From contig NZ_JAVAMS010000004.1 of assembly GCF_030730945.1 (NCBI RefSeq), forward strand, positions 186,001-250,000: 64,000 bases of DNA, read 5' to 3'. Made by a program: the position numbers and the translations under genes. The notes below the pieces were generated by a model. It saw nothing but the letters and a program-made list of their open reading frames with translations, was not told the origin of the DNA and did not search any database. Below, in pieces: positions 2,945-56,148 of this stretch; the first letter of the stretch is position 1, and every line of letters starts with the position of its first letter. This DNA comes from Aurantiacibacter poecillastricola (GTDB taxonomy: Bacteria; Pseudomonadota; Alphaproteobacteria; Sphingomonadales; Sphingomonadaceae).

Positions 2945-5236
2945 ATGAAAGCCGCAATGAGTTTGAAACTGACCGTGTCGCTTGCAGCGCTCGGCGCAGC
3001 AGTGCCCGCGACGGCGCAGGATAGCCAGCCCGTCGAGGAGGCCGCCGCCGAGCAGCGTCAGGCTGCGAGCAACCAGATCGTCGTTACCGCCACCCGCCGC
3101 GAACAGACGCTGCAGGAAGTGCCGGTTGCCGTGTCCGTCGTCTCGGGCGAACTGCTGGACGATTCCGGCGTGAGCGGGGTCGACCAGATTTCCCAAGCCG
3201 TCCCCAGCGTCACCTTTACGCAGGGCAACAACGAGAATAACAGCTCGCTGAACATCCGCGGCATCGGCACCAACGTCTTCTCGTCCGGCGTGGAGCCGTC
3301 CGTCTCGATCGTGTTCGACGACGTGGTGATGGCGCGTGCGGGGCAGGGCTTCCAGGATTTCATCGACGTTCAGCGCATCGAGGTGCTGCGCGGTCCGCAG
3401 TCCACCCTCTTCGGCAAGAACGCGTCGGCCGGTGTGGTTTCTGTAACCACCAAGGATGCGACCGATTACCTGTCCGGCGAATTCGATGCGATGTATGCCG
3501 AGGGTAACGAATACCAGGTGCGCGGCTCGCTTTCGGGTCCGCTGGCAGACGGCATCGCCGCACGGGTGAGCGCCTTCTACAAGCAGTATGACGGCATCAC
3601 GACGAACCTGTTCAACGGCGAGGAGTACAACGGCTACGAAGCCTGGGGCGTGCGCGGCAAGCTCCAGATGGATGCCACCGACAACCTCTCGCTCGAATTC
3701 ATCGGCGACTATCGCGACTCCACGTCCACGCCGACATTCGTGTTGGCGGATGCCCTGAACCCGTCCGTCGTCGCCGCTATCGCGCCGCTCGAGCTCGAAC
3801 TGTCCAATACCGACGTGAATGTGAACACGCCGCCGCGCAGCGATTCCGAGCAGTGGGGCGCGCAGATGAATGCCGAATATCTGTTCGGTAACGACTTCGT
3901 GCTGAACTCGACCACTGCGGTGCGCAGCTACGATTTCGCGAACAACATCGACGTCGACGCGACGCCCCTGCTGGCGCCGCCTGCCGATCGCAGCTTCTTC
4001 CTGTGGGATCTCAACAACGGCACGACCCAGCTGACGCAGTACAGCCAGGAAGTGCGTCTGGAATCGCCGGATCTCGGCGGGTTCGACTTCCTGGTCGGCG
4101 CCTTTGCCTATTACGTCGATCTCGACAGCACGTTCCAGCGCCGCTGGGTGTTCCGCAATGCTGCGGGTAACGAGGTTCCGCGCAGCGGCCAGTTCAACAG
4201 CACCAACCAGACCACCAACCTTGCAGCTTTCGTCAGCGGCAACGTCTATCTCGGCGACCTGAACCTGTTCGGCGGCCTGCGCGTCATTCACGAGAAGCTG
4301 GAATGGGAGGTTTTCCGCGACCCGGCCAATGTCGTGGTGCCCGGCGATATCGCCCTTCCGGGTGCGGCCGGACAGCCTGCCGATTTCACCGGTTCGACCG
4401 ATGATACGGCGTTCACCGGCAATATCGGCGCGCGCTACGACTTTGGCGCCGGCAATGTCTATGCCAGCTACTCGCGCGGCTACAAGGGGCAGGGCTTCAA
4501 CACCGCCTTCGCTTCGCTGGAAGGCAGCGAGCCCGTGGAAGCCGAGACCGTCGACGCCTTCGAGGTCGGCGCGAAGCTTTCGACCTGTGACGATGTCTTC
4601 TCGGTGAACCTCGCGCTGTTCTACACCCAGTACCAGAATTACCAGGCGCAGGCGCAGCGGCCCAACGACATCACCTTCGAACTGCGCAATGCAGGTGACA
4701 TCTCCACCAAGGGTATCGAGATCGAAACGGTCTTCCAGCCCAGCGACCTGACGACCTTCCGTCTCGGCGCGACCTACATGGATGCAAAGATCGACGAATT
4801 CCCCGGTGGCCCTTGCTATGCGGGCCAGACGGTGGCCGAAGGCTGCGTGAACGGCGTGCAGGATCTGAGCGGGGCCGATCTGCCCAACGCTCCCGACTGG
4901 CGCCTGACCGGGTTCGCTCGCCAGCTGGTTCCGTTCGGCGACGGTTCGCCCGTCGATGGTTTCGTGCAGGGCAATTTCAGCTACCAGTCGTCCGTCCAGT
5001 TCGCGCTCGACCAGAACCCGCTCGCACGCCTCGACGACTTCTGGCTGGTCAACGCGTCCGTCGGCGTCGAGTCGAAGGACGAGGACTATTCGGTCAGCCT
5101 GTTCGTGCGCAATTTGTTCGACCAGAACCTGCCGCAGGCCATTGGCTACTCCACGGCCACTGGCGGACGCGTCACCGCACAGGTGTGGCGCAACCAGGAA
5201 CGGTATTTCGGGGTCCAGGCCCGCTTCGGGTTCTGA
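2945..5236 (+). CDS. TonB-dependent outer-membrane receptor
   Basis: 763 residues. A signal peptide ending TAQ is followed by a plug domain with [21 protein letters not shown] (approx. residues 41-61) and the conserved [17 protein letters not shown] segment, then a beta-barrel ending in the aromatic C-terminus QARFGF required for outer-membrane insertion. It belongs to the large sphingomonad class of TonB receptors that import glycans, siderophores and aromatics. It is preceded by two LacI-type operators and followed by a strong intrinsic terminator, and sits with sulfatases and a GH3. I infer import of oligosaccharides from the sulfated glycan. No SusD-like partner is present. Confidence 0.92.
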   Translation: MKAAMSLKLTVSLAALGAAVPATAQDSQPVEEAAAEQRQAASNQIVVTATRREQTLQEVPVAVSVVSGELLDDSGVSGVDQISQAVPSVTFTQGNNENNSSLNIRGIGTNVFSSGVEPSVSIVFDDVVMARAGQGFQDFIDVQRIEVLRGPQSTLFGKNASAGVVSVTTKDATDYLSGEFDAMYAEGNEYQVRGSLSGPLADGIAARVSAFYKQYDGITTNLFNGEEYNGYEAWGVRGKLQMDATDNLSLEFIGDYRDSTSTPTFVLADALNPSVVAAIAPLELELSNTDVNVNTPPRSDSEQWGAQMNAEYLFGNDFVLNSTTAVRSYDFANNIDVDATPLLAPPADRSFFLWDLNNGTTQLTQYSQEVRLESPDLGGFDFLVGAFAYYVDLDSTFQRRWVFRNAAGNEVPRSGQFNSTNQTTNLAAFVSGNVYLGDLNLFGGLRVIHEKLEWEVFRDPANVVVPGDIALPGAAGQPADFTGSTDDTAFTGNIGARYDFGAGNVYASYSRGYKGQGFNTAFASLEGSEPVEAETVDAFEVGAKLSTCDDVFSVNLALFYTQYQNYQAQAQRPNDITFELRNAGDISTKGIEIETVFQPSDLTTFRLGATYMDAKIDEFPGGPCYAGQTVAEGCVNGVQDLSGADLPNAPDWRLTGFARQLVPFGDGSPVDGFVQGNFSYQSSVQFALDQNPLARLDDFWLVNASVGVESKDEDYSVSLFVRNLFDQNLPQAIGYSTATGGRVTAQVWRNQERYFGVQARFGF

Positions 5237-49149: not shown

Positions 49150-49902
49150 ATGAACACCGCACGCCCCGCCGCAGGGCGCGGGTTCCAGGCCCTGCTGGGA
49201 CTGGGCCTTGCCACCTGCATCTTCGCTGCCTGGCTGGCGCTGCATATCTATGCGATGTTCGTTTTCGAACTCGGCTGGGCGAACGTGCCGCTCGCGCTGG
49301 CCATCGCGGCGCTGCAATGCTGGCTTTCGGTGGGCCTGTTCATCATCAGCCACGATGCGATGCATGGCTCGCTCGCCCCCGGATGGCCGCGGCTCAACAG
49401 CGCTATCGGTGGCGGACTGCTGTTCCTTTATGCAGGCTTCGGCTGGCGCAAGATGCGCGATGCGCATTTCGCCCATCATCGCCACACGGGCTCACCTGAT
49501 GACCCCGACTTCGATGCCGACAATCCGGAGCATTTCTGGCGCTGGTACGGCACCTTCCTGAAGCGCTATTTCGGCTGGCAGTCGGGTCTCTACGTCTCCA
49601 CCATCGTCACGGTCTACTGGCTGGTGGTGGGCGTGCCGATGGCGCAGATCGTGCTGGTGTTCGGCCTGCCCGCCATCGCGTCGAGCATGCAGCTGTTCTA
49701 CTTCGGCACCTACCGCCCGCACCGCCATCCCGCAGCCTTCGTGGACCGGCACAAGGCGCGCTCGGATGCATTCTCGCCGCTTGTAAGCCTCGCAACCTGT
49801 TTCCATTTCGGGTATCATCTGGAACATCACAGGTATCCGCAAACCCCCTGGTGGGCCCTGCCGCGCCGTCGGCGCGAGGTGAGCGGAGCCGAGCGGAGCT
49901 GA
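49150..49902 (+). CDS. crtW: beta-carotene 4-ketolase CrtW
   Basis: 250 residues, membrane-bound di-iron oxygenase. Histidine boxes HDAMHG, HFAHHRH and HFGYHLEHHRYP are complete, with four membrane helices. Converts beta-carotene or zeaxanthin to keto derivatives. Directly followed (3 bp) by crtZ, so the pair predicts astaxanthin-type pigments. Confidence 0.94.
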   Translation: MNTARPAAGRGFQALLGLGLATCIFAAWLALHIYAMFVFELGWANVPLALAIAALQCWLSVGLFIISHDAMHGSLAPGWPRLNSAIGGGLLFLYAGFGWRKMRDAHFAHHRHTGSPDDPDFDADNPEHFWRWYGTFLKRYFGWQSGLYVSTIVTVYWLVVGVPMAQIVLVFGLPAIASSMQLFYFGTYRPHRHPAAFVDRHKARSDAFSPLVSLATCFHFGYHLEHHRYPQTPWWALPRRRREVSGAERS

Positions 49903-49905
49903 AGA

Positions 49906-50406
49906 ATGTCGTTGCTCGAAATCGTCCTCACCGTGCTCGGCGCGGTCGTGTTCATGGAGATGTTCGCCTGGTGGGCGCACAAATACGTGATGCATGGCTG
50001 GGGCTGGGCATGGCACCGCGACCATCACGAGCCGCATGACAAGGTGCTGGAGAAGAACGACCTCTTCGCAGTCGTGTTCGCCAGCATCGTGATCGTGATG
50101 TTTGTTGTCGGCTATTTCGTGTCCGACGCGCTGTGGTGGTTTGCGCTGGGCATCACGATCTATGGCGGCATCTACACGCTGGTGCATGACGGGCTTGTCC
50201 ACCAGCGCTATTTCCGCTGGGTGCCCAAGCGCGGCTATGCCAAGCGGCTGGTGCAGGCGCACAAGCTGCACCACGCCACCATCGGCAAGGAGGGCGGCGT
50301 TAGCTTCGGCTTCGTCTTTGCCGGAGACCCGGCCAGGCTGAAGGCAGAGCTCAGGCGCCAGCGAGAGGCGGGCGAGGCCGTTGTGCGGGACAGCGCAGGC
50401 GCCTGA
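49906..50406 (+). CDS. crtZ: beta-carotene 3-hydroxylase CrtZ
   Basis: 166 residues. Histidine clusters HKYVMHG, HRDHHEPH, HDGLVHQR and HKLHHA are all present; four membrane helices. Adds the 3- and 3'-hydroxyls to beta-ionone rings. Co-transcribed with crtW. Confidence 0.94.
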   Translation: MSLLEIVLTVLGAVVFMEMFAWWAHKYVMHGWGWAWHRDHHEPHDKVLEKNDLFAVVFASIVIVMFVVGYFVSDALWWFALGITIYGGIYTLVHDGLVHQRYFRWVPKRGYAKRLVQAHKLHHATIGKEGGVSFGFVFAGDPARLKAELRRQREAGEAVVRDSAGA

Positions 50407-50472
50407 ACCCCCAGACGAAGAAGGCGCCGACATCCTGCTGGACATCGACGCCTCCGGGTCGTTTTCTGCGTC

Positions 50473-50631
50473 TTATCGCGCGTAATTCACATACAGCCCG
50501 TGGATCAGCCCGGGGATGAACCCCAGCAGGGTAAGGACGAGGTTGAGCAACGTCGTCCCGCCAAGGCCGTGCTTGGCTGCAACGCCAAGGGGCGGAATGA
50601 GAATGGTGGCGATCAGGATCAGAATAGCCAT
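50473..50631 (-). CDS. YqaE/Pmp3 family two-helix membrane protein
   Basis: 52 residues with two membrane helices. ILIATILIPPLGVAAKHG and GFIPGLIHGLYVNY are characteristic of the Pmp3/YqaE family linked to membrane potential and salt stress. It is transcribed in the same direction as the downstream end of the psp cluster. AAAGGAGA precedes the ATG. Confidence 0.9.
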   Translation of the reverse strand: MAILILIATILIPPLGVAAKHGLGGTTLLNLVLTLLGFIPGLIHGLYVNYAR

Positions 50632-50713
50632 TGGGGTCTCCTTTTAGAGTCGTCCCCGTCCATTTGTCCTATCAACGGCTTGCAACGGGCGGCGTTCCAA
50701 GAGGGTCGCGCAC

Positions 50714-51064
50714 TTACTCGGGCCGCGTCCAGATCCAGCCAGCGACCAGCGTCATCACGGCAATCGGTACGATGGCAAGCGGGAAGCCGACCATGATCCC
50801 GGCCAGCACGCCTGCCAGCACCATGAAGGCGAGCGCCATCAGCTTGCTGCGCCGCGCGATGCGGCGATGCTCGCGCCAGTCGCGCAGGGGCGGGCCGTAG
50901 GTCGGATGGTCCAGCAGCCGCGCTTCCCATGCCGGATTGCCGCGCGCGAAGCAGAACAAGGCGCCCAGCAGGAAGACGAAGCCCGGCATCATCGGCAGGA
51001 TCATGCCGATCCAGCCCAGCACGAAGCACACCACGCCCGCCGCCATCCAGAGCGGGCGCGCCAT
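50714..51064 (-). CDS. YbaN (DUF454) family membrane protein
   Basis: 116 residues. GWIGMILPMMPGFVFLLGALFCFARGNPAWEARLLDHPTYGP is the DUF454 signature; three to four helices. Sits 1 bp after the SufE-like stop. Function unknown. Confidence 0.9.
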   Translation of the reverse strand: MARPLWMAAGVVCFVLGWIGMILPMMPGFVFLLGALFCFARGNPAWEARLLDHPTYGPPLRDWREHRRIARRSKLMALAFMVLAGVLAGIMVGFPLAIVPIAVMTLVAGWIWTRPE

Positions 51065-51065
51065 G

Positions 51066-51482
51066 TCAGGCAGCCGCGATGCGCGCGGCGTGTTCCTGCA
51101 CCAGCGCGATCATATTGGGCACGCCCTGCGTGCGGTTGGAAGAGAGCTGGTTCCTGAGGTCGAAGGGAGCGAGTGCTTCGGCAACATCCATCCGGGCCAC
51201 TTGATCCGCAGGCCTGTCCTGCACGGCGGAGATCACCAGCGCGACGATGCCCTTGGTGATGGCGGCATTGCTGTCGGCGAGGAAGTGCAGCTTGTCGCCC
51301 TCGGTGGTGGGATAGACCCACACCTGCGCCGAGCAGCCGCGCACCAGCGTGGCGTCGGTCTTGAGGGCGGCGGGCATTTCGTCCAGCTCGCGGCCCAGTT
51401 CGATCAGCAGGCGATAGCGTTCATCGCCTTCGAGAAATTCGTATTCTTCGCGGATGTCGTCGAGAGTGCGCATCATGCGCAT
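51066..51482 (-). CDS. sufE: SufE-family cysteine desulfurase activator
   Basis: 138 residues. Active-site Cys in VRGCSAQVW and N-terminal YRLLIELGRELDEMP are conserved. Accepts persulfide sulfur from SufS for Fe-S assembly. Start may be ATG 51473, 51476 or 51482. Transcribed with the last psp-cluster gene 14 bp upstream. Confidence 0.92.
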   Translation of the reverse strand: MRMMRTLDDIREEYEFLEGDERYRLLIELGRELDEMPAALKTDATLVRGCSAQVWVYPTTEGDKLHFLADSNAAITKGIVALVISAVQDRPADQVARMDVAEALAPFDLRNQLSSNRTQGVPNMIALVQEHAARIAAA

Positions 51483-51496
51483 CTAGTGTCTCGGCG

Positions 51497-51736
51497 TCAG
51501 AGGTCCACCCCGTTGGCGATGGCTTCCAGCTTGCGGATGCGTTCCTTGAGGTCGGCGATCTCGATGCGGGCCATGCCCTCGCGCGATCCGTTCTCCAGTT
51601 CGGGCGGGGTACGGCGCATCTCCAGCTCGCGGGTCTTGAGCGCGATCCAGGCGTTCCAGCCCCGCAGCGCCGCGGCGCTCAGCATGGCGATGGCAAGCAG
51701 GCAGCTGGTGGCGATCAACAGGTCGATTTGTGTCAT
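51497..51736 (-). CDS. PspB-like small coiled-coil membrane protein, copy 6 (truncated motif)
   Basis: 79 residues: one membrane helix (DLLIATSCLLAIAMLSAAAL), a charged linker, and a coiled coil ending IADLKERIRKLEAIANGVDL. It keeps the ERI-x-x-LE-x-I part of the repeat motif but lacks the final EIExLR segment, so it looks like a degenerate member of the array. ATG 51736 with GGGAG upstream is chosen over ATG 51754. Confidence 0.7.
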   Translation of the reverse strand: MTQIDLLIATSCLLAIAMLSAAALRGWNAWIALKTRELEMRRTPPELENGSREGMARIEIADLKERIRKLEAIANGVDL

Positions 51737-51767
51737 TGTGTCTACTCCCTGCAATTGGCTGCGACGC

Positions 51768-52019
51768 CTAGTCGTCGCGCAAGTTCTCGATTTCCTCGGC
51801 GGTGCGGCGCGAGGGGTCAGTAGCTATGCGTTCAAGCACTTTCACCCGTTCGCGCAATTCCTCGACTTCGCGCTCCAGCTCGGCCTCGCGCGGGGTGTGA
51901 CCGACCGGATTGCCCCTCTCGTCGCGCACGATGCCCTGCTTTGCATCCTGCGAGCGCTTCCAGGCGGCGAACGCCATGCTTGCAAGCACGATGAGAAGAA
52001 CGAAGCCCCAGAAACTCAT
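51768..52019 (-). CDS. PspB-like small coiled-coil membrane protein, copy 5
   Basis: 83 residues. N-terminal membrane helix FWGFVLLIVLASMAFAAW, linker, then coiled coil with RERVKVLERIATD and ending EEIENLRDD. The motif D/E-R-V-x-x-L-E-R-I-x-T-D...E-I-E-x-L-R is common to copies 1-5. Start overlaps the stop of copy 4 by ATGA. No known function beyond the Psp context. Confidence 0.85.
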   Translation of the reverse strand: MSFWGFVLLIVLASMAFAAWKRSQDAKQGIVRDERGNPVGHTPREAELEREVEELRERVKVLERIATDPSRRTAEEIENLRDD

Positions 52020-52297
52020 GCCGCGCTCTCCCGGCGCAGGTCCTCGATCTCGGCGGCAAGGTCGGGCGAGCGGTCGGTGGCGATGCGTTCGAGCACGCGC
52101 ACCCGGTCTTCCAACAGGGTGTCGGCCTTGCGCTCGTCGCGAAGCTGCTGTGCTTTCGCTTCCTCGATCCGGGCCTCCAGCTCAAGCTTGCGCTCTTCGT
52201 GCTCCTGCACCCGCTTGTTCACCATGTAGGCGCAGGGGAAGACGATCATCATCGCTGCAAGGATGAACCAGAAGATCATGGCGAGGTTACCGTCCAT
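52016..52297 (-). CDS. PspB-like small coiled-coil membrane protein, copy 4
   Basis: 93 residues. Membrane helix IFWFILAAMMIVFPCAYMV, long coiled coil (approx. 30-75) rich in E/K/R, then LEDRVRVLERIATDRSPDLA and EIEDLRRE. Start and previous stop overlap by 1 nt (TGATG). The cytoplasmic coiled coil is the expected PspA-binding face by analogy with PspB. Confidence 0.85.
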   Translation of the reverse strand: MDGNLAMIFWFILAAMMIVFPCAYMVNKRVQEHEERKLELEARIEEAKAQQLRDERKADTLLEDRVRVLERIATDRSPDLAAEIEDLRRESAA

Positions 52298-52608
52298 CAG
52301 TTGGCGTCCTTCCTGCCTTCGCGCAGGCTCTCGATCTCGGTGGTGAGATGGTAGCCGCTATCAGTGACGATCCGCTCCACATTGGCGAGGCGGTCCTTCA
52401 TGGAGCCAAGTTCGGCACGCAGTTCGGCGTTTTCCTGGGTGAGGAGCTTCACCCGCTCGATCGCCTGGTCGTTCTTGGGATAGACGGCCTTGCCCCAGCT
52501 GTTTTCCAGCGGATAGCCGTGCTTCATGCGCATCCAGGTGTTTGCAATCCAGCCGACCGTCATGATGGCGACGCCAACGATCACGGTGGTTTCGGTAATC
52601 AGTTCCAT
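52297..52608 (-). CDS. PspB-like small coiled-coil membrane protein, copy 3
   Basis: 103 residues. Membrane helix TTVIVGVAIMTVGWIANTW, then RMKHGYPLENSWGK, a segment shared with copy 2, then coiled coil ending MKDRLANVERIVTDSGYH and EIESLREG. Start overlaps copy 2 stop by 1 nt (TGATG). Confidence 0.85.
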   Translation of the reverse strand: MELITETTVIVGVAIMTVGWIANTWMRMKHGYPLENSWGKAVYPKNDQAIERVKLLTQENAELRAELGSMKDRLANVERIVTDSGYHLTTEIESLREGRKDAN

Positions 52609-52964
52609 CAGATACGCTCCTTCTTTGTCATGTCGAGCGGCACGCCGCTGTCACGGTCCTGCCGGGAAGGCTTGTCGCGCAGCGCCTCGATCTCCTCGGC
52701 CACGGTGTAGCCCTTGTCAGTAACGATACGTTCGAGCACGACCATGCGGTCTTCCATGCGCTCCATCACGTCGCGCAGCTGCTGGTTCTGTTCGCGCAGC
52801 TTCTCGGTCTCGCGCGGATCGGAGCTGTCGATCTTCTCAATCTTGCCGCCCCATTCGTCCTCGAGCGGGTAGCCGTGCTTGGCGCGGATCCAGTTGTCGA
52901 CCAGCCAGCCGATATTGCAGGCTACGATGATGCCGATAATGAAGAGAGCGGTTTCCCAATTCAT
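52608..52964 (-). CDS. PspB-like small coiled-coil membrane protein, copy 2
   Basis: 118 residues. Membrane helix ALFIIGIIVACNIGWLVDNW, then RAKHGYPLEDEWGGK (shared with copy 3), coiled coil with RMEDRMVVLERIVTDKGYTV and EEIEALRDK, and a tail SGVPLDMTKKERI that echoes the tail of copy 1. Start overlaps the stop of copy 1 by 4 nt (ATGA). Confidence 0.85.
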   Translation of the reverse strand: MNWETALFIIGIIVACNIGWLVDNWIRAKHGYPLEDEWGGKIEKIDSSDPRETEKLREQNQQLRDVMERMEDRMVVLERIVTDKGYTVAEEIEALRDKPSRQDRDSGVPLDMTKKERI

Positions 52965-53269
52965 CGGGCGGTCTCCCTTTTCGAGACGTTCAGCGGCACG
53001 CCATTGCCTTCATCGACGGCGCGCTGGTCGCGCAGGGCCTCGATCTGTGTGGCGATGTCGTAGCCCTTGTCGGTGACGATGCGCTCGAGCACTTTCACCC
53101 TGTCTTCCAGTTCCTGCACCCGGCTGGCATATTGCGCCGCCTTCTCGGCGCTCTGGCCGGCGGTCGCCTCGAGCTGCTTTTCGGTGATCTTGCGCTGGTT
53201 CTGCATCCATACGATCAGTACGACCATGATGAACGGTGCCAATGGTATGAGATAGACCCAGTCAAACAT
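52961..53269 (-). CDS. PspB-like small coiled-coil membrane protein, copy 1
   Basis: 102 residues. Membrane helix VYLIPLAPFIMVVLIVWM, coiled coil (approx. 25-60) with LEDRVKVLERIVTDKGYDIA and QIEALRDQ, and tail GNGVPLNVSKRETAR similar to copy 2. 45 bp after pspC with GGGGA before the ATG. It is closest in motif to copies 2 and 3. Confidence 0.85.
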   Translation of the reverse strand: MFDWVYLIPLAPFIMVVLIVWMQNQRKITEKQLEATAGQSAEKAAQYASRVQELEDRVKVLERIVTDKGYDIATQIEALRDQRAVDEGNGVPLNVSKRETAR

Positions 53270-53314
53270 TCGTGTCCCCTTTCCTTGTTCCCTGTCTAGT
53301 CCGTGGGACGCCCC

Positions 53315-53689
53315 TCAGCGCAGCTGTTCGATTTCCTGCGAGAGCCGCGGATTGGCGGAGACGTAGTAGGTCTCCACGTCGGCCAGGCGGCGGTCGATAT
53401 CCTTCATGCGGGCGCGGATTTCTCGCGCAGTGCGCTTCGGGCTCTGCCGGACGCGCTGCCAGTACTGCGTCTCGTCGGGCGCGGTGTAGAGGTGCGGCGG
53501 CTTCTTGTTCAGCAGGATGCCGGCGATGAAGTAGGCGAGGAGCGGCCAGCCCTGTGCGAGCACGAGCACGATCATGGCGAGGCGAACCCACAGCGCGTTG
53601 ACGCCGGTGTAATCGGCGATGCCGGCACAAACACCCATCACCTTGCCATTCACCTTGTCGCGGTAAAGCGTTGTGCGGGGGGTATTCAT
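53315..53689 (-). CDS. pspC: phage-shock protein PspC
   Basis: 124 residues. N-terminal PspC domain starting LYRDKVNGKVMGVCAGIADYTG with membrane helices, then a cytoplasmic helical tail. The tail ends DRRLADVETYYVSANPRLSQEIEQLR, which follows the same E-R-x-x-x-x-x-E...EIExLR pattern as the small paralogues behind it. Start overlaps the pspB stop by ATGA. Inner-membrane sensor of the Psp response. Confidence 0.93.
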   Translation of the reverse strand: MNTPRTTLYRDKVNGKVMGVCAGIADYTGVNALWVRLAMIVLVLAQGWPLLAYFIAGILLNKKPPHLYTAPDETQYWQRVRQSPKRTAREIRARMKDIDRRLADVETYYVSANPRLSQEIEQLR

Positions 53690-53982
53690 GCGTGGTCTCC
53701 CTTCTTCTCGGCGAGCAGCTCCTCCAGCTCGCGCAGCGGTACGTTGTCGACGGCCTTGTCGTGGCGGATGCGGGCAGGCTCGAAGTCCGGATTGTCGGAA
53801 GCGACGAGGCGCTCGACCGTGTCCATCCGCTCGTCGAGGCGCTTTGCCAGCTGGTAGAGCTCTTCCAGCAGGGCCTCATCATCGGTGGTGATGGTAGCGG
53901 CGGTCTTCCACTTCGTGATGTAGTGAAGGACGATCCACGGCAGGCCGATGAAAATGGCCGGTATGACGATCAGTTCTTCCAC
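53686..53982 (-). CDS. pspB: phage-shock protein PspB
   Basis: 98 residues from a GTG start (ribosome site GGGGA). Membrane helix IVIPAIFIGLPWIVLHYI and a cytoplasmic helix with LAKRLDERMDTVERLVASDNPDFE, matching E. coli PspB ...RIQALESILDAEHPNW. Ends with an extension (PLRELEELLAEKK) longer than E. coli PspB. Acts with PspC to relieve PspA inhibition of PspF. Confidence 0.92.
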   Translation of the reverse strand: MEELIVIPAIFIGLPWIVLHYITKWKTAATITTDDEALLEELYQLAKRLDERMDTVERLVASDNPDFEPARIRHDKAVDNVPLRELEELLAEKKGDHA

Positions 53983-53984
53983 GT

Positions 53985-54677
53985 CTATTCCCCTTCGTCC
54001 TTCTGGGCGCCGCTGCCCTTGCCGAGCGCGCGCTTCATTTCCTCCAGTTCGTCGTCGACCTTGTCGCCGCCTTCCAGGGCAGCGAATTCGTCGGCGAGCG
54101 ACTTCTTGTCCTGGCCGATGCCCAGCGCATCGGCGCGGCCCTCCGCGTAGTCGACACGGCGTTCGAGCTGGTCGAAGCGGGCATGGGCCTCGTCCACCCG
54201 GTCGCTGGTCATCAGGCTGCGCAGCTTCACGCGGTTCTCCGCGCTTTCGAGACGGGCCGTGATCTGGCTCTGCCGGCTGCGCGCTTCGCGCAGGCGGTTC
54301 TGCAGCTTCGCGATATCCTGCTCGTAGGCTCGCAGCGCGTCATCGAGCACGGCGATCTCCTGCTTCAGCTGGTCGCACATGTCGGACGCCTTGCGCTTTT
54401 CCATCAGGGCGGCGCGGGCGAGATCCTCGCGGTCCTTGGAAAGGGCGAGCTGCGCCTTCTCCGACCAGTCGGTCTGCAACCGCTCCAGCTTCACCGTATG
54501 GCGATGCATTTCCTTCTGGTCCGCGATGGTGCGGGCAGCGCTCGCACGCACTTCCACCAGCGTTTCCTCCATTTCGAGGATGATCATGCGGATCATCTTG
54601 GATGGATCGTCGGCCTGGTCGAGAAGCTCGTTGAAATTGGCGGCGATGATATCACGGGTGCGAGAGAAAATGCCCAT
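53985..54677 (-). CDS. pspA: phage-shock protein PspA
   Basis: 230 residues starting MGIFSRTRDIIAANFNELLDQADDP, the conserved amphipathic start of PspA; long coiled coils follow (ESCRT-III/IM30 fold). ATG 54677 has GGAGG 7 nt upstream. The frame stays open upstream to a GTG at 54818 which overlaps the stop of the small gene before it (GTGA) and would add 47 residues. Binds stressed membrane and inhibits PspF. Confidence 0.95.
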   Translation of the reverse strand: MGIFSRTRDIIAANFNELLDQADDPSKMIRMIILEMEETLVEVRASAARTIADQKEMHRHTVKLERLQTDWSEKAQLALSKDREDLARAALMEKRKASDMCDQLKQEIAVLDDALRAYEQDIAKLQNRLREARSRQSQITARLESAENRVKLRSLMTSDRVDEAHARFDQLERRVDYAEGRADALGIGQDKKSLADEFAALEGGDKVDDELEEMKRALGKGSGAQKDEGE

Positions 54678-54814
54678 CAAGGGTCCTCCGATATTGAGCG
54701 AGTTGCCGGTGGGCGTGGGACTTGTGCGGAGCCGCTCGATTTCCTTGTCGAGCCGCGATCCCGCATTGGCCTTGCCACGACCCAGCGGCATCAGGTTCTT
54801 GGGTTCGTCGTTGT

Positions 54815-54967
54815 TCACGCCAGTTCCACCAGCGGCATTCCCACCACCATCGCAGGGGCATTCGCCACTGGCTCCATTCCGGCGAAGATCGTGAACGCAA
54901 GCATCGCGGCGATGCTGACCAGGGCGGCCTGGCCAAGCTGGCTGCTGAAGAAGTTGCGATCAAACAT
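54815..54967 (-). CDS. 50-residue membrane peptide, first gene of the psp operon
   Basis: 50 residues: MFDRNFFSSQLGQ, one hydrophobic helix AALVSIAAMLAFTIFAGM and a short tail ending VELA. GGAGG lies 8-12 nt before the ATG and the start is about 27 nt downstream of the predicted sigma-54 start site. Its stop overlaps a GTG of the pspA frame. Overall layout resembles the peptides at 39861 and 40027, though sequence identity is low. No family recognised. Confidence 0.75.
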   Translation of the reverse strand: MFDRNFFSSQLGQAALVSIAAMLAFTIFAGMEPVANAPAMVVGMPLVELA

Positions 54968-55003
54968 TGTCTAGTCCTCCAAAACCCTTTCTGCCCCATG
55001 AAT

Positions 55004-55019
55004 TGCAACGGCCGTGCCA
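55004..55019 (-). promoter_or_regulatory. canonical sigma-54 promoter of the psp operon
   Basis: On the minus strand the sequence reads TGGCACGGCCGTTGCA, an exact match to TGGCACG-N4-TTGCA. The psp operon's first start codon is 37 bp downstream of it. The divergent activator pspF lies just upstream, as in enterobacteria. Confidence 0.93.
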
Positions 55020-55092
55020 ATTCGCGGGATCGGCGGATTTCTGCGGTTTTCGAGACCCTGCTATCTTTCCTTATCGGTGTCTATTGCCAACA

Positions 55093-55121
55093 CTTGGGAA
55101 TTCGCACTATATCTTGGGAAT
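55093..55121. promoter_or_regulatory. CTTGGGAAT direct repeats, candidate PspF upstream activating sequences
   Basis: CTTGGGAAT occurs at 55093-55101 and 55113-55121, 20 bp apart, 87-115 bp upstream of the -12 element. The second copy runs into the pspF ATG (55120), so binding would also block pspF translation start region or its promoter, giving autoregulation. Similar TTGGGAAAT lies before the second sigma-54 promoter (39699-39715). Confidence 0.55.
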
Positions 55122-56148
55122 GGAGCGGGAAAACCAGTTCATCGGCCAGTCCGGCGCCTTCCTCGACGCGGTGGAGCGAGCCAGCCGCGCGGCGCCAATG
55201 GCGCGTCCCGTCCTTGTAATCGGCGAGAGGGGAACCGGCAAGGAACTGATAGCCGAACGCCTGCATCGCCTGTCGGACCGCTGGGAAGAGCCGCTCGTCA
55301 CCATGAACTGCGCGGCGCTGCCCGAAACGCTGATCGAAGCCGAGCTGTTCGGCCACGAGCAGGGTGCCTTCACCGGCGCTACCAGAGCGCGCGAGGGAAG
55401 GTTCGAGGAAGCCGACCGGGGTACGTTGTTTCTCGACGAACTGGGCACCTTGTCGATGGGCGCGCAGGAACGGCTGCTGCGCGCGGTGGAATATGGCGAG
55501 GTGACCCGCATCGGTGCCAGCCGTCCTACGCGGGTGGATGTGCGCATCGTCGCCGCGACCAACGAGGATCTGCCTCGCCGCGCGGAGGAAGGGACGTTTC
55601 GCCCCGACCTGCTCGATCGACTCAGCTTCGAGGTCATCACACTGCCGCCCCTACGCGTACGCGAGGGGGACGTCGAAGTGCTCGCCGACTATTTCGGCAG
55701 GCGCATGGCCGCCGAACTGGGCTGGGAGCAATGGCCCGGTTTTGCCGATCACGTGGCGGAGGCGATGGAGAACTACGCCTGGCCGGGCAATGTCCGCGAA
55801 TTGCGCAACGTGGTGGAGCGCGCGGTCTATCGCTGGGACAGGTGGGAGCAGCCCATCGGCGAAGTTGTGTTCGACCCGTTCGATTCGCCCTGGACCCCGC
55901 TCACGACTTCAAAAGCGAGCGCGAAGGATGAAGGCGCGCCGTCGCAGGAGGCGCCCGCGAAACACCGCGTGTCCTACGACAAGATCGACGACCTGCGCGC
56001 CGAGATCGATGCGCACGAGAAGGCCATTGTCGAACATGCGCTGGGCGCCAATCGCTGGAACCAGCGGCAGACGGCAAAGGCACTCAAGCTCACCTACGAT
56101 CAGTTGCGCCACTGCATGAAGAAGCATGGCATCGGGCAATCCGGTTGA
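55120..56148 (+). CDS. pspF: sigma-54 activator PspF
   Basis: 342 residues with no N-terminal receiver, as in E. coli PspF. AAA+ domain: Walker A GERGTGKE, GAFTGA loop (GAFTGATR), Walker B GTLFLDELG, sensor ATNEDLPRRAEEGTFRPDLLDRL; C-terminal Fis-type HTH with NRWNQRQTAKALKLTYDQL. The start has only TTGGGA, a poor ribosome site that doubles as the repeated CTTGGGAAT, so expression is probably low and controlled by PspA. Confidence 0.95.
   Translation: MERENQFIGQSGAFLDAVERASRAAPMARPVLVIGERGTGKELIAERLHRLSDRWEEPLVTMNCAALPETLIEAELFGHEQGAFTGATRAREGRFEEADRGTLFLDELGTLSMGAQERLLRAVEYGEVTRIGASRPTRVDVRIVAATNEDLPRRAEEGTFRPDLLDRLSFEVITLPPLRVREGDVEVLADYFGRRMAAELGWEQWPGFADHVAEAMENYAWPGNVRELRNVVERAVYRWDRWEQPIGEVVFDPFDSPWTPLTTSKASAKDEGAPSQEAPAKHRVSYDKIDDLRAEIDAHEKAIVEHALGANRWNQRQTAKALKLTYDQLRHCMKKHGIGQSG

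Follow-up and report, generated by a model that had tools for sequence, protein, structure and literature searches.

What do six small membrane-protein genes contribute to an operon that already has pspA, pspB and pspC? The question is raised by a 64,000-nucleotide stretch of the Aurantiacibacter poecillastricola genome (contig NZ_JAVAMS010000004.1, positions 186,001 to 250,000 of the forward strand; hereafter the window), in which six minus-strand genes, c1 to c6, lie downstream of pspABC at 51497-53269. An initial annotation, made from the sequence alone, had taken them for a tandem array of PspB-like coiled-coil proteins, which may be a graded or multi-partner set of anchors for PspA. We found that they form a real array of tandem paralogues, that the array also stands beside psp in relatives, and that its distribution is tied to PspA. 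The array is family-wide in the Sphingomonadaceae. Judged by sequence profiles, c1-c5 are related to PspB as well as to PspC and score under the cut-offs of both families. We tentatively propose that c1-c6 are translated together and serve as membrane subunits of a larger Psp complex, which docks PspA. Even in enterobacteria, work continues on how PspB and PspC relay a membrane signal to PspA and on how the PspA polymer comes to its place.

Six single-pass proteins and a shared cassette

The proteins have 102, 118, 103, 93, 83 and 79 amino acids (aa), running from c1 (52961-53269) through c2 (52608-52964), c3 (52297-52608), c4 (52016-52297) and c5 (51768-52019) to c6 (51497-51736, counted from its ATG; a TTG at 51754 is a possible alternative upstream start). 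The positions and lengths of the six consecutive genes, 79-118 aa, were thereby confirmed. By hydropathy each protein has a single hydrophobic stretch near the N-terminus, with little or no periplasmic part ahead of this membrane helix. Copies c1-c5 share a gapless C-terminal cassette of 38 residues, roughly LEDRVxVLERIVTDxGYxxAxEIExLR, encoded at 53030-53143, 52677-52790, 52321-52434, 52034-52147 and 51777-51890, respectively. The membrane helix annotated in all six copies and the common ending annotated in copies 1-5 are borne out. Of 69 sequences taken from 13 genomes (65 from c1-c5 and four from an extra gene, c4b), 68 have a cassette of 38 residues; the exception is one c5 (L014), whose cassette is 7 residues longer. 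Among the open reading frames (ORFs) of the fetched loci, a c1 query found c2 at 5e-14 and a c3 query found c2 at 4.3e-22, so the common ending is not a product of chance.

In all 69 of these sequences, lysine and arginine residues after the hydrophobic stretch outnumber those before it, which predicts an N-out/C-in topology. The layout of PspB, an N-terminal membrane helix followed by a coil with the C-terminus inside, is found in c1-c5. Next to the membrane, c2 carries RAKHGYPLE and c3 carries RMKHGYPLE. Identity between sampled orthologue pairs was 78% in the cassette and 52% in the part preceding it. Comparison of the cassette with solved structures gave chance-level matches alone. No PHROGs match was obtained for any of the six proteins, so a phage origin was rejected.

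c6 is of a distinct type. It has the conserved ending RIEIADLKERIRKLEAIANGVDL and no EIExLR, and shares with the cassette just an LKERIRKLEAIA-like part. Among 18 sequences aligned, the C-terminus reads GV[DE][LM] in 16 and GIDI in two. The lysine and arginine imbalance was seen in just 8 of 13 c6 sequences, which makes the topology ambiguous. Neither the PspB nor the PspC profile matched c6 (0.7 and 0.2%), and phmmer with c5 gave weak matches to c6 of three loci (L010, L012 and L014). c6 was counted as a member of the array by position and layout alone. A nearly invariant RIEIADLKERIRKLEAIA was also seen in c6; the c6 gene is kept in L073, where no cassette gene remains.

Resemblance of each copy to PspB and PspC

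c1, the one copy that the Pfam and NCBIfam scans place near the PspB models, falls below the PspB cut-offs (23.8 against 25.6 bits for Pfam PF06667, 27.5 against 51.7 for TIGR02976). Since c2-c6 score lower than c1 or not at all with the PspB models, plain PspB identity of c2-c6 was rejected. With the NCBIfam models of PspB (TIGR02976) and PspC (TIGR02978), E-values were 2.8e-6 and 1.1e-3 for c1, 4.6e-3 and 6.5e-3 for c2, and 1.6e-3 and 4.4e-3 for c4; c3 matched TIGR02978 (9.1e-5, 22.3 bits) and not TIGR02976, and c5 matched TIGR02976 (0.097) and not TIGR02978. The PspC domain PF04024 was not matched by c1-c6 in the Pfam scan. c1 matches 6546 database proteins, and the named ones among the matches listed are mostly called 'hypothetical protein'; PF06667 is carried by 8 of the 120 c1 relatives listed, a few of which are named phage shock protein B.

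The pooled cassette profile (A3) matches by sequence the C-terminal, PspA-binding domain of PspC. In hhalign the two aligned over 36 gapless columns (94.7%, E 6.3e-8) with a score of 39.5, which none of 100 column shuffles reached (maximum 15.1); the reversed profile gave 15.8%. The core of the motif had been annotated as a match to PspB. This is true of the first half of the cassette, which is however common to PspB and PspC, and the EIExLR end is common to PspC alone. When the family profile of PspB was set directly against that of PspC, the two aligned over the membrane part alone (13.6%).

The idea that the cassette is simply PspC-like was weakened by a comparison copy by copy. Scores against PspB, PspC and a PspA coiled-coil control were 27.4, 25.8 and 20.9 for c1; 31.2, 36.5 and 19.6 for c2; 29.5, 46.1 and 18.4 for c3; 28.4, 36.7 and 18.7 for c4; 21.0, 28.9 and 25.4 for c4b; 31.3, 26.7 and 17.9 for c5; and 14.3, 11.4 and 12.6 for c6. 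Similarity to PspB lies above the control in c1-c5 (27.4-31.3 against 17.9-20.9), below it in c4b (21.0 against 25.4) and with the pooled A3 profile (25.4 against 27.2), and is absent in c6. The PspC tail was matched by c2, c3 and c4 at 82.8, 94.1 and 84.8%, compared with 65.7, 57.0 and 51.1% for PspB; c4b matched it moderately (51.7%), c1 and c5 did so weakly (25.1 and 33.5%), and c6 did not match it. For c5 the PspB profile gave 71.7% against 33.5% for PspC, and in a wider alignment c1 gave 74.0% (score 32.5) for PspB against 40.1% (score 28.2) for PspC. These profiles suggest that c2-c4 lean to the tail of PspC and that c1 and c5 lean to PspB over the length of that protein, while c6 leans to neither. 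The description as PspB copies therefore survives in the PspB-like layout and in the nearness of c1 and c5 to PspB, and fails in that no copy exceeds a cut-off, c2-c4 are nearer to the PspC tail and c6 resembles neither protein.

Distribution and co-occurrence with PspA

We sampled 199 genomes of the family at a completeness filter of 95%, with a cassette profile that does not count c6; candidate relatives came from a first-look search, by which weak relatives may be missed. The cassette was present in 189 genomes, 153 of which have at least three. One match was found in 18 genomes, two in 18, three in 54, four in 55, five in 25, six in 11, seven in 5, eight in 2 and nine in 1; in one of the 8-match genomes (G630, contamination 5%) the locus lies at two places. 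PspA (PF04012) was found in 191 of the 199 genomes and in all 189 that bear the cassette, so that no family genome has the cassette without PspA. Eight of the 10 genomes without the cassette, from five genera, also lack PspA; the other two (G561 and G582) have it. The hypergeometric probability of this association is 8.5e-13 when kinship is ignored.

Within the order, 92 of 118 genomes matched, namely 35 family members with 2-6 cassettes each and 57 others with 1-2. The A2 profile matched three of 144 genomes in the class sample, all three of them family members. In the phylum, the wider A3 profile matched 41 of 299 genomes: 16 from the family, 2 from the order, 4 from the class and 19 from further away. 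The 25 of these that lie outside the family have 1-3 cassettes each, and sampled non-family genomes overall have 0-3.

Gene order and age of the slots

Scanning genome contigs with c2 gave 12 near loci, from Aurantiacibacter, Qipengyuania, Erythrobacter and other Sphingomonadaceae or Alphaproteobacteria. All 12 have the order c1-c2-c3-c4-c5-c6-sufE, and 11 have pspB-pspC or more ahead of the array; the twelfth (L009) ends at a contig edge. A seventh gene, c4b, is present in four of them (L004, L006, L007 and L011). In a tree of the 69 sequences, c1, c2, c3, c5 and c4b each form one clade with support of 0.83-0.995. Most slots therefore predate the sampled genera.

Among 23 stretches from the family, 22 are psp loci. 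Their arrays have seven genes in 2 loci, six in 8, five in 8, four in 3 and two in 1, and sufE stands at the far end in 19 of the 22. A second set of loci was chosen as extremes of array size. The largest arrays have 8 or 9 genes and are those of L066-L071, among them L067 and L071, where five copies are c1-like. The reduced ones keep c6 alone (L073), c5 alone (L075 and L076) or c5 and c6 (L077-L079). Six is thus the number of genes in this genome, and the loci examined have 0-9.

In the remaining family stretch (L025), the cassette ends a 129-aa protein (3728-4117) that shows at its N-terminus a weak match to DUF6487 (22.5 bits, under the cut-off of 24). The cassette looks portable, because it closes this protein in a stretch without psp genes. 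In sister families, three of 17 stretches (L046, L047 and L055) have one cassette gene inside a psp operon, and L042 has two neighbouring cassette genes. One sister family has a lone cassette gene after rpoD (L044, 3896-4168; L045, L048 and L049); Pfam identified rpoD and dnaG in L044 and rpoD in L045, and L048 and L049 were judged by gene lengths alone. A further PspC-domain protein, of just 75-94 aa (PF04024), was seen in the psp operons of L046 (3540-3776), L055 (3637-3864) and L018 (5336-5620).

Overlapping frames and the promoter

The frames overlap by 4 nt (nucleotides) at c1-c2, 1 nt at c2-c3, 1 nt at c3-c4 and 4 nt at c4-c5, as had been annotated for copies 1-5; gaps of 45 nt and 31 nt separate pspC from c1 and c5 from c6. 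A 1- or 4-nt overlap was found at all four junctions here and at all 52 cassette-gene junctions in 12 related loci. The start codon at these 52 junctions is ATG in 41 and GTG or TTG in 11, the latter being starts with which a 4-nt overlap is more readily met by chance.

A generic sigma-54 pattern gave 52 matches in the whole window against 44 expected and was useless, so a weighted operon score was adopted. The best minus-strand site within 51301-55200 is the -24/-12 sequence TGGCACGGCCGTTGCA, which starts at 55019 (55004-55019) and has the full score of 15 against the typed consensus. The site recurs with a score of 14-15 in all 11 relatives in which it was measured from orf50, the first gene past it. 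In seven further relatives, where pspA was the reference, five have it at 14 of 15 and two lack it (L019 and L032); in L020 a site lies about 310 nt upstream. Minus-strand sigma-54-like sites within the array score at most 11. By this site and the gene order, the array sits in the psp operon behind a promoter sequence of the PspF/sigma-54 type, from which we infer a common transcript.

Other genes of the row

All three psp genes exceed the Pfam and NCBIfam (TIGR) cut-offs and, like the array, lie on the minus strand. pspA (53985-54677; PF04012 124.1 bits, TIGR02977 279.6 bits) starts at an ATG at 54677 behind GGAGG, and its longest ORF reaches 54818. It is followed by the true pspB (53686-53982; PF06667 70.6 bits, TIGR02976 92.6 bits) and by pspC (53315-53689; TIGR02978 128.3 bits), whose C-terminal 36-38 residues are those that match the pooled cassette. 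A PspF-type sigma-54 activator gene (PF00158, 204.8 bits) adjoins the operon on the plus strand and points away from it.

The minus-strand gene orf50 (54815-54967) encodes a 50-aa single-pass protein with one hydrophobic segment. It has no Pfam match and is present in 10 of the 12 near loci, the other two (L009 and L011) ending at a contig edge. In Zymomonas, the gene numbered just before pspA is called pspD in the accessible text of PMC8645129 and hypothetical in that of PMC3495753.

At the other end, sufE (51066-51482, minus strand; PF02657 116.7 bits) directly follows c6 and closes the row. Beyond it, at 49150-50406 and 50473-51064, lie minus-strand DUF454 and Pmp3 genes and then plus-strand genes of the fatty acid desaturase and hydroxylase families, which by eye resemble a carotenoid ketolase and hydroxylase.

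A possible role of the array

The presence of a row of varying length in most sampled family members suggests an enlarged membrane docking complex for PspA, and that c1-c6 are its co-translated membrane subunits is the reading that we prefer, although we hold it tentatively. Each of c1-c5 would supply one membrane helix and a cytoplasmic helix that ends in the PspB/PspC-related cassette. The array behind pspABC would be transcribed from the PspF/sigma-54 promoter and translated as a coupled block, and because of this coupling the subunits would be produced together in similar amounts. Through their coiled coils the proteins would pair with one another and also with PspB and PspC to give one enlarged hetero-oligomeric inner-membrane complex, which presents several docking tails to PspA. 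Docking would pull PspA off PspF and seat the PspA polymer at the damaged membrane, and c6 would be a distinct, conserved partner. We infer the coiled-coil pairing, the PspA binding and the recruitment of PspA by the array.

According to the accessible text of PMC5596341, enterobacterial PspC in the on state is able to bind PspA by its cytoplasmic C-terminal domain, freeing PspF. The leucine zipper of E. coli PspC (77-98) is described as required for interaction with PspA in the accessible text of PMC3068692. Positions 51-116 of the E. coli-type PspC NCBIfam model (119 positions) align with residues 12-76 of c1. If the model and the protein are numbered alike, this alignment puts the start of the cassette (c1 43-80) over the end of the zipper.

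We also considered, with more doubt, that the coupled block forms a hetero-oligomeric collar in the membrane with a fixed set of subunits, in which tails of the PspC and PspB types would jointly nucleate and position the ESCRT-III-like PspA polymer. If this were true, the Sphingomonadaceae would have turned a switch of one PspB and one PspC into a multivalent platform for PspA assembly made of slot-specific subunits.

Several observations weigh against an enlarged docking complex. A PspA-docking tail is least secure in c1 and c5, because these are closer to PspB, and the NCBIfam E-values favour PspB over PspC for c1, c2 and c4. The most conserved residues of the array are LERIxTD, where the PspC tail has VETYYVS. 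The pooled cassette scored 27.2 (55.8%) with the PspA coiled-coil control, above PspB (25.4) and c6 (25.8). The AlphaFold2 model of c1 is one helix over residues 7-86 with low to middling confidence (mean pLDDT 67.8). In the tree of 69 sequences c4 is not one clade. Array size spans 0-9 genes across the loci examined; L072 has psp without an array, its PspC retaining the tail, and 14 of the 17 sister-family stretches show no psp gene, some of them ending at contig edges. A weaker sigma-54-like site lies ahead of pspA at 54777 (12.5 of 15). A sigma-70 scan of 50300-55300 found no site, which is uninformative because just 0.9 sites were expected.

It is less probable that the array serves to diversify sensing, no single complex being formed, each helix sensing its own stress or partner, and the common cassette reporting to PspA or PspC. 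Sampled paralogue pairs of one genome have indeed diverged more before the cassette (25% identity) than within it (44%), the slots retain characteristic sequences next to the membrane (HGYPLE in c2 and c3, for example), and the number and mix of slots vary among loci. However, linkers without constraint would diverge too, there is scarcely any periplasmic part before the membrane helix, and the overlap at 52 of 52 junctions points to matched amounts rather than to separate sensors.

A brake or decoy is improbable. The copies would then occupy PspC, as PspB does in the off state in Yersinia, or PspA, and so damp or buffer the response; c1 and c5 are closest to PspB, and PspC could face competition for PspA from additional tails that have no PspC domain. 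However, genes behind a PspF-activatable promoter should rise with stress.

Still less probable is neutral birth and death, in which local duplication yields redundant anchors of little consequence. The range from 0 to 9 array genes, the five c1-like copies in L067 and L071 and c4b in four near relatives would be expected from it, but at least three cassettes are kept in 153 of 199 genomes, the slots are old and their order is fixed in 12 of 12 near loci, the cassette is constrained, and it is absent along with PspA. A generic coiled-coil scaffold, division- or SufE-related and adjoining psp by chance, is very improbable: c3 and c4 have weak, sub-cut-off matches to ZapB and FtsL models, sufE lies past the array, sister families have cassette genes away from psp and the PspA control reaches 27.2 with A3, but none of the 199 family genomes has the cassette without PspA, PspB and PspC both outscore the PspA control in c1-c5, and the A2 profile matched just three of 144 class genomes, all of them family members.

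The docking complex, if it exists, would provide a role that can be tested for a large family, represented by the 6546 proteins that c1 matches. Tails copied onto separate anchors and kept as old slots would be ready variants for telling the sensing part from the docking part.

Comparison with known systems

In its accessible text, the survey of Ravi et al. 2024 (PMC11237479) mentions that PspB duplicates occur in psp operons and that a divergent PspB forms a C-terminal fusion with PspC. That additional PspB copies exist, and that PspC has a PspB-like tail, is thus already known from that text (PMC11237479). Psp expression in Zymomonas mobilis is reported to be higher with ethanol and xylose, and no array gene is named in the accessible text of these reports (PMC3495753, PMC8645129). 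We found no paper on sphingomonad psp transcriptomics that could be linked to the array. The coupled array, its slots and the family-wide co-occurrence with PspA had no description in the literature searched, subscription papers and preprints being mostly beyond its scope; the statement that such an array was not described can be kept for these features and not for PspB duplicates as such. The example given by Ravi et al., AOL22920.1, has an accession of a series that may be that of Erythrobacter litoralis.

The duplicates of Ravi et al. resemble the array in being additional PspB-like genes in a psp operon, and a PspB-like segment ends PspC in both; they differ in that the accessible text (PMC11237479) mentions neither an array size nor a cassette, a spread through the family or a mechanism. 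In sister families and some further Pseudomonadota there are standalone cassette proteins, which also have one hydrophobic segment and the same gapless cassette. Unlike the array genes, they number 1-3 matches per genome in our samples, lie mostly in stretches without psp and stand at most two side by side (L042, L081 and L080).

PspB (PF06667, TIGR02976) is likewise a small protein of the psp operon with one N-terminal membrane helix and a cytoplasmic coil, and over 59-63 columns its profile is nearest to c1 and c5. It differs in that none of the six copies reaches its cut-offs, the true pspB stands as a gene of its own and the PspB matches end before EIExLR. From PspC the array proteins differ in being single-pass, in lacking PF04024 and in having LERIxTD in place of VETYYVS. 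PspC is nevertheless the closest profile for c2, c3, c4 and c4b, is encoded in the same operon, and is aligned by the pooled cassette without a gap over 36 columns that include the EIExLR end.

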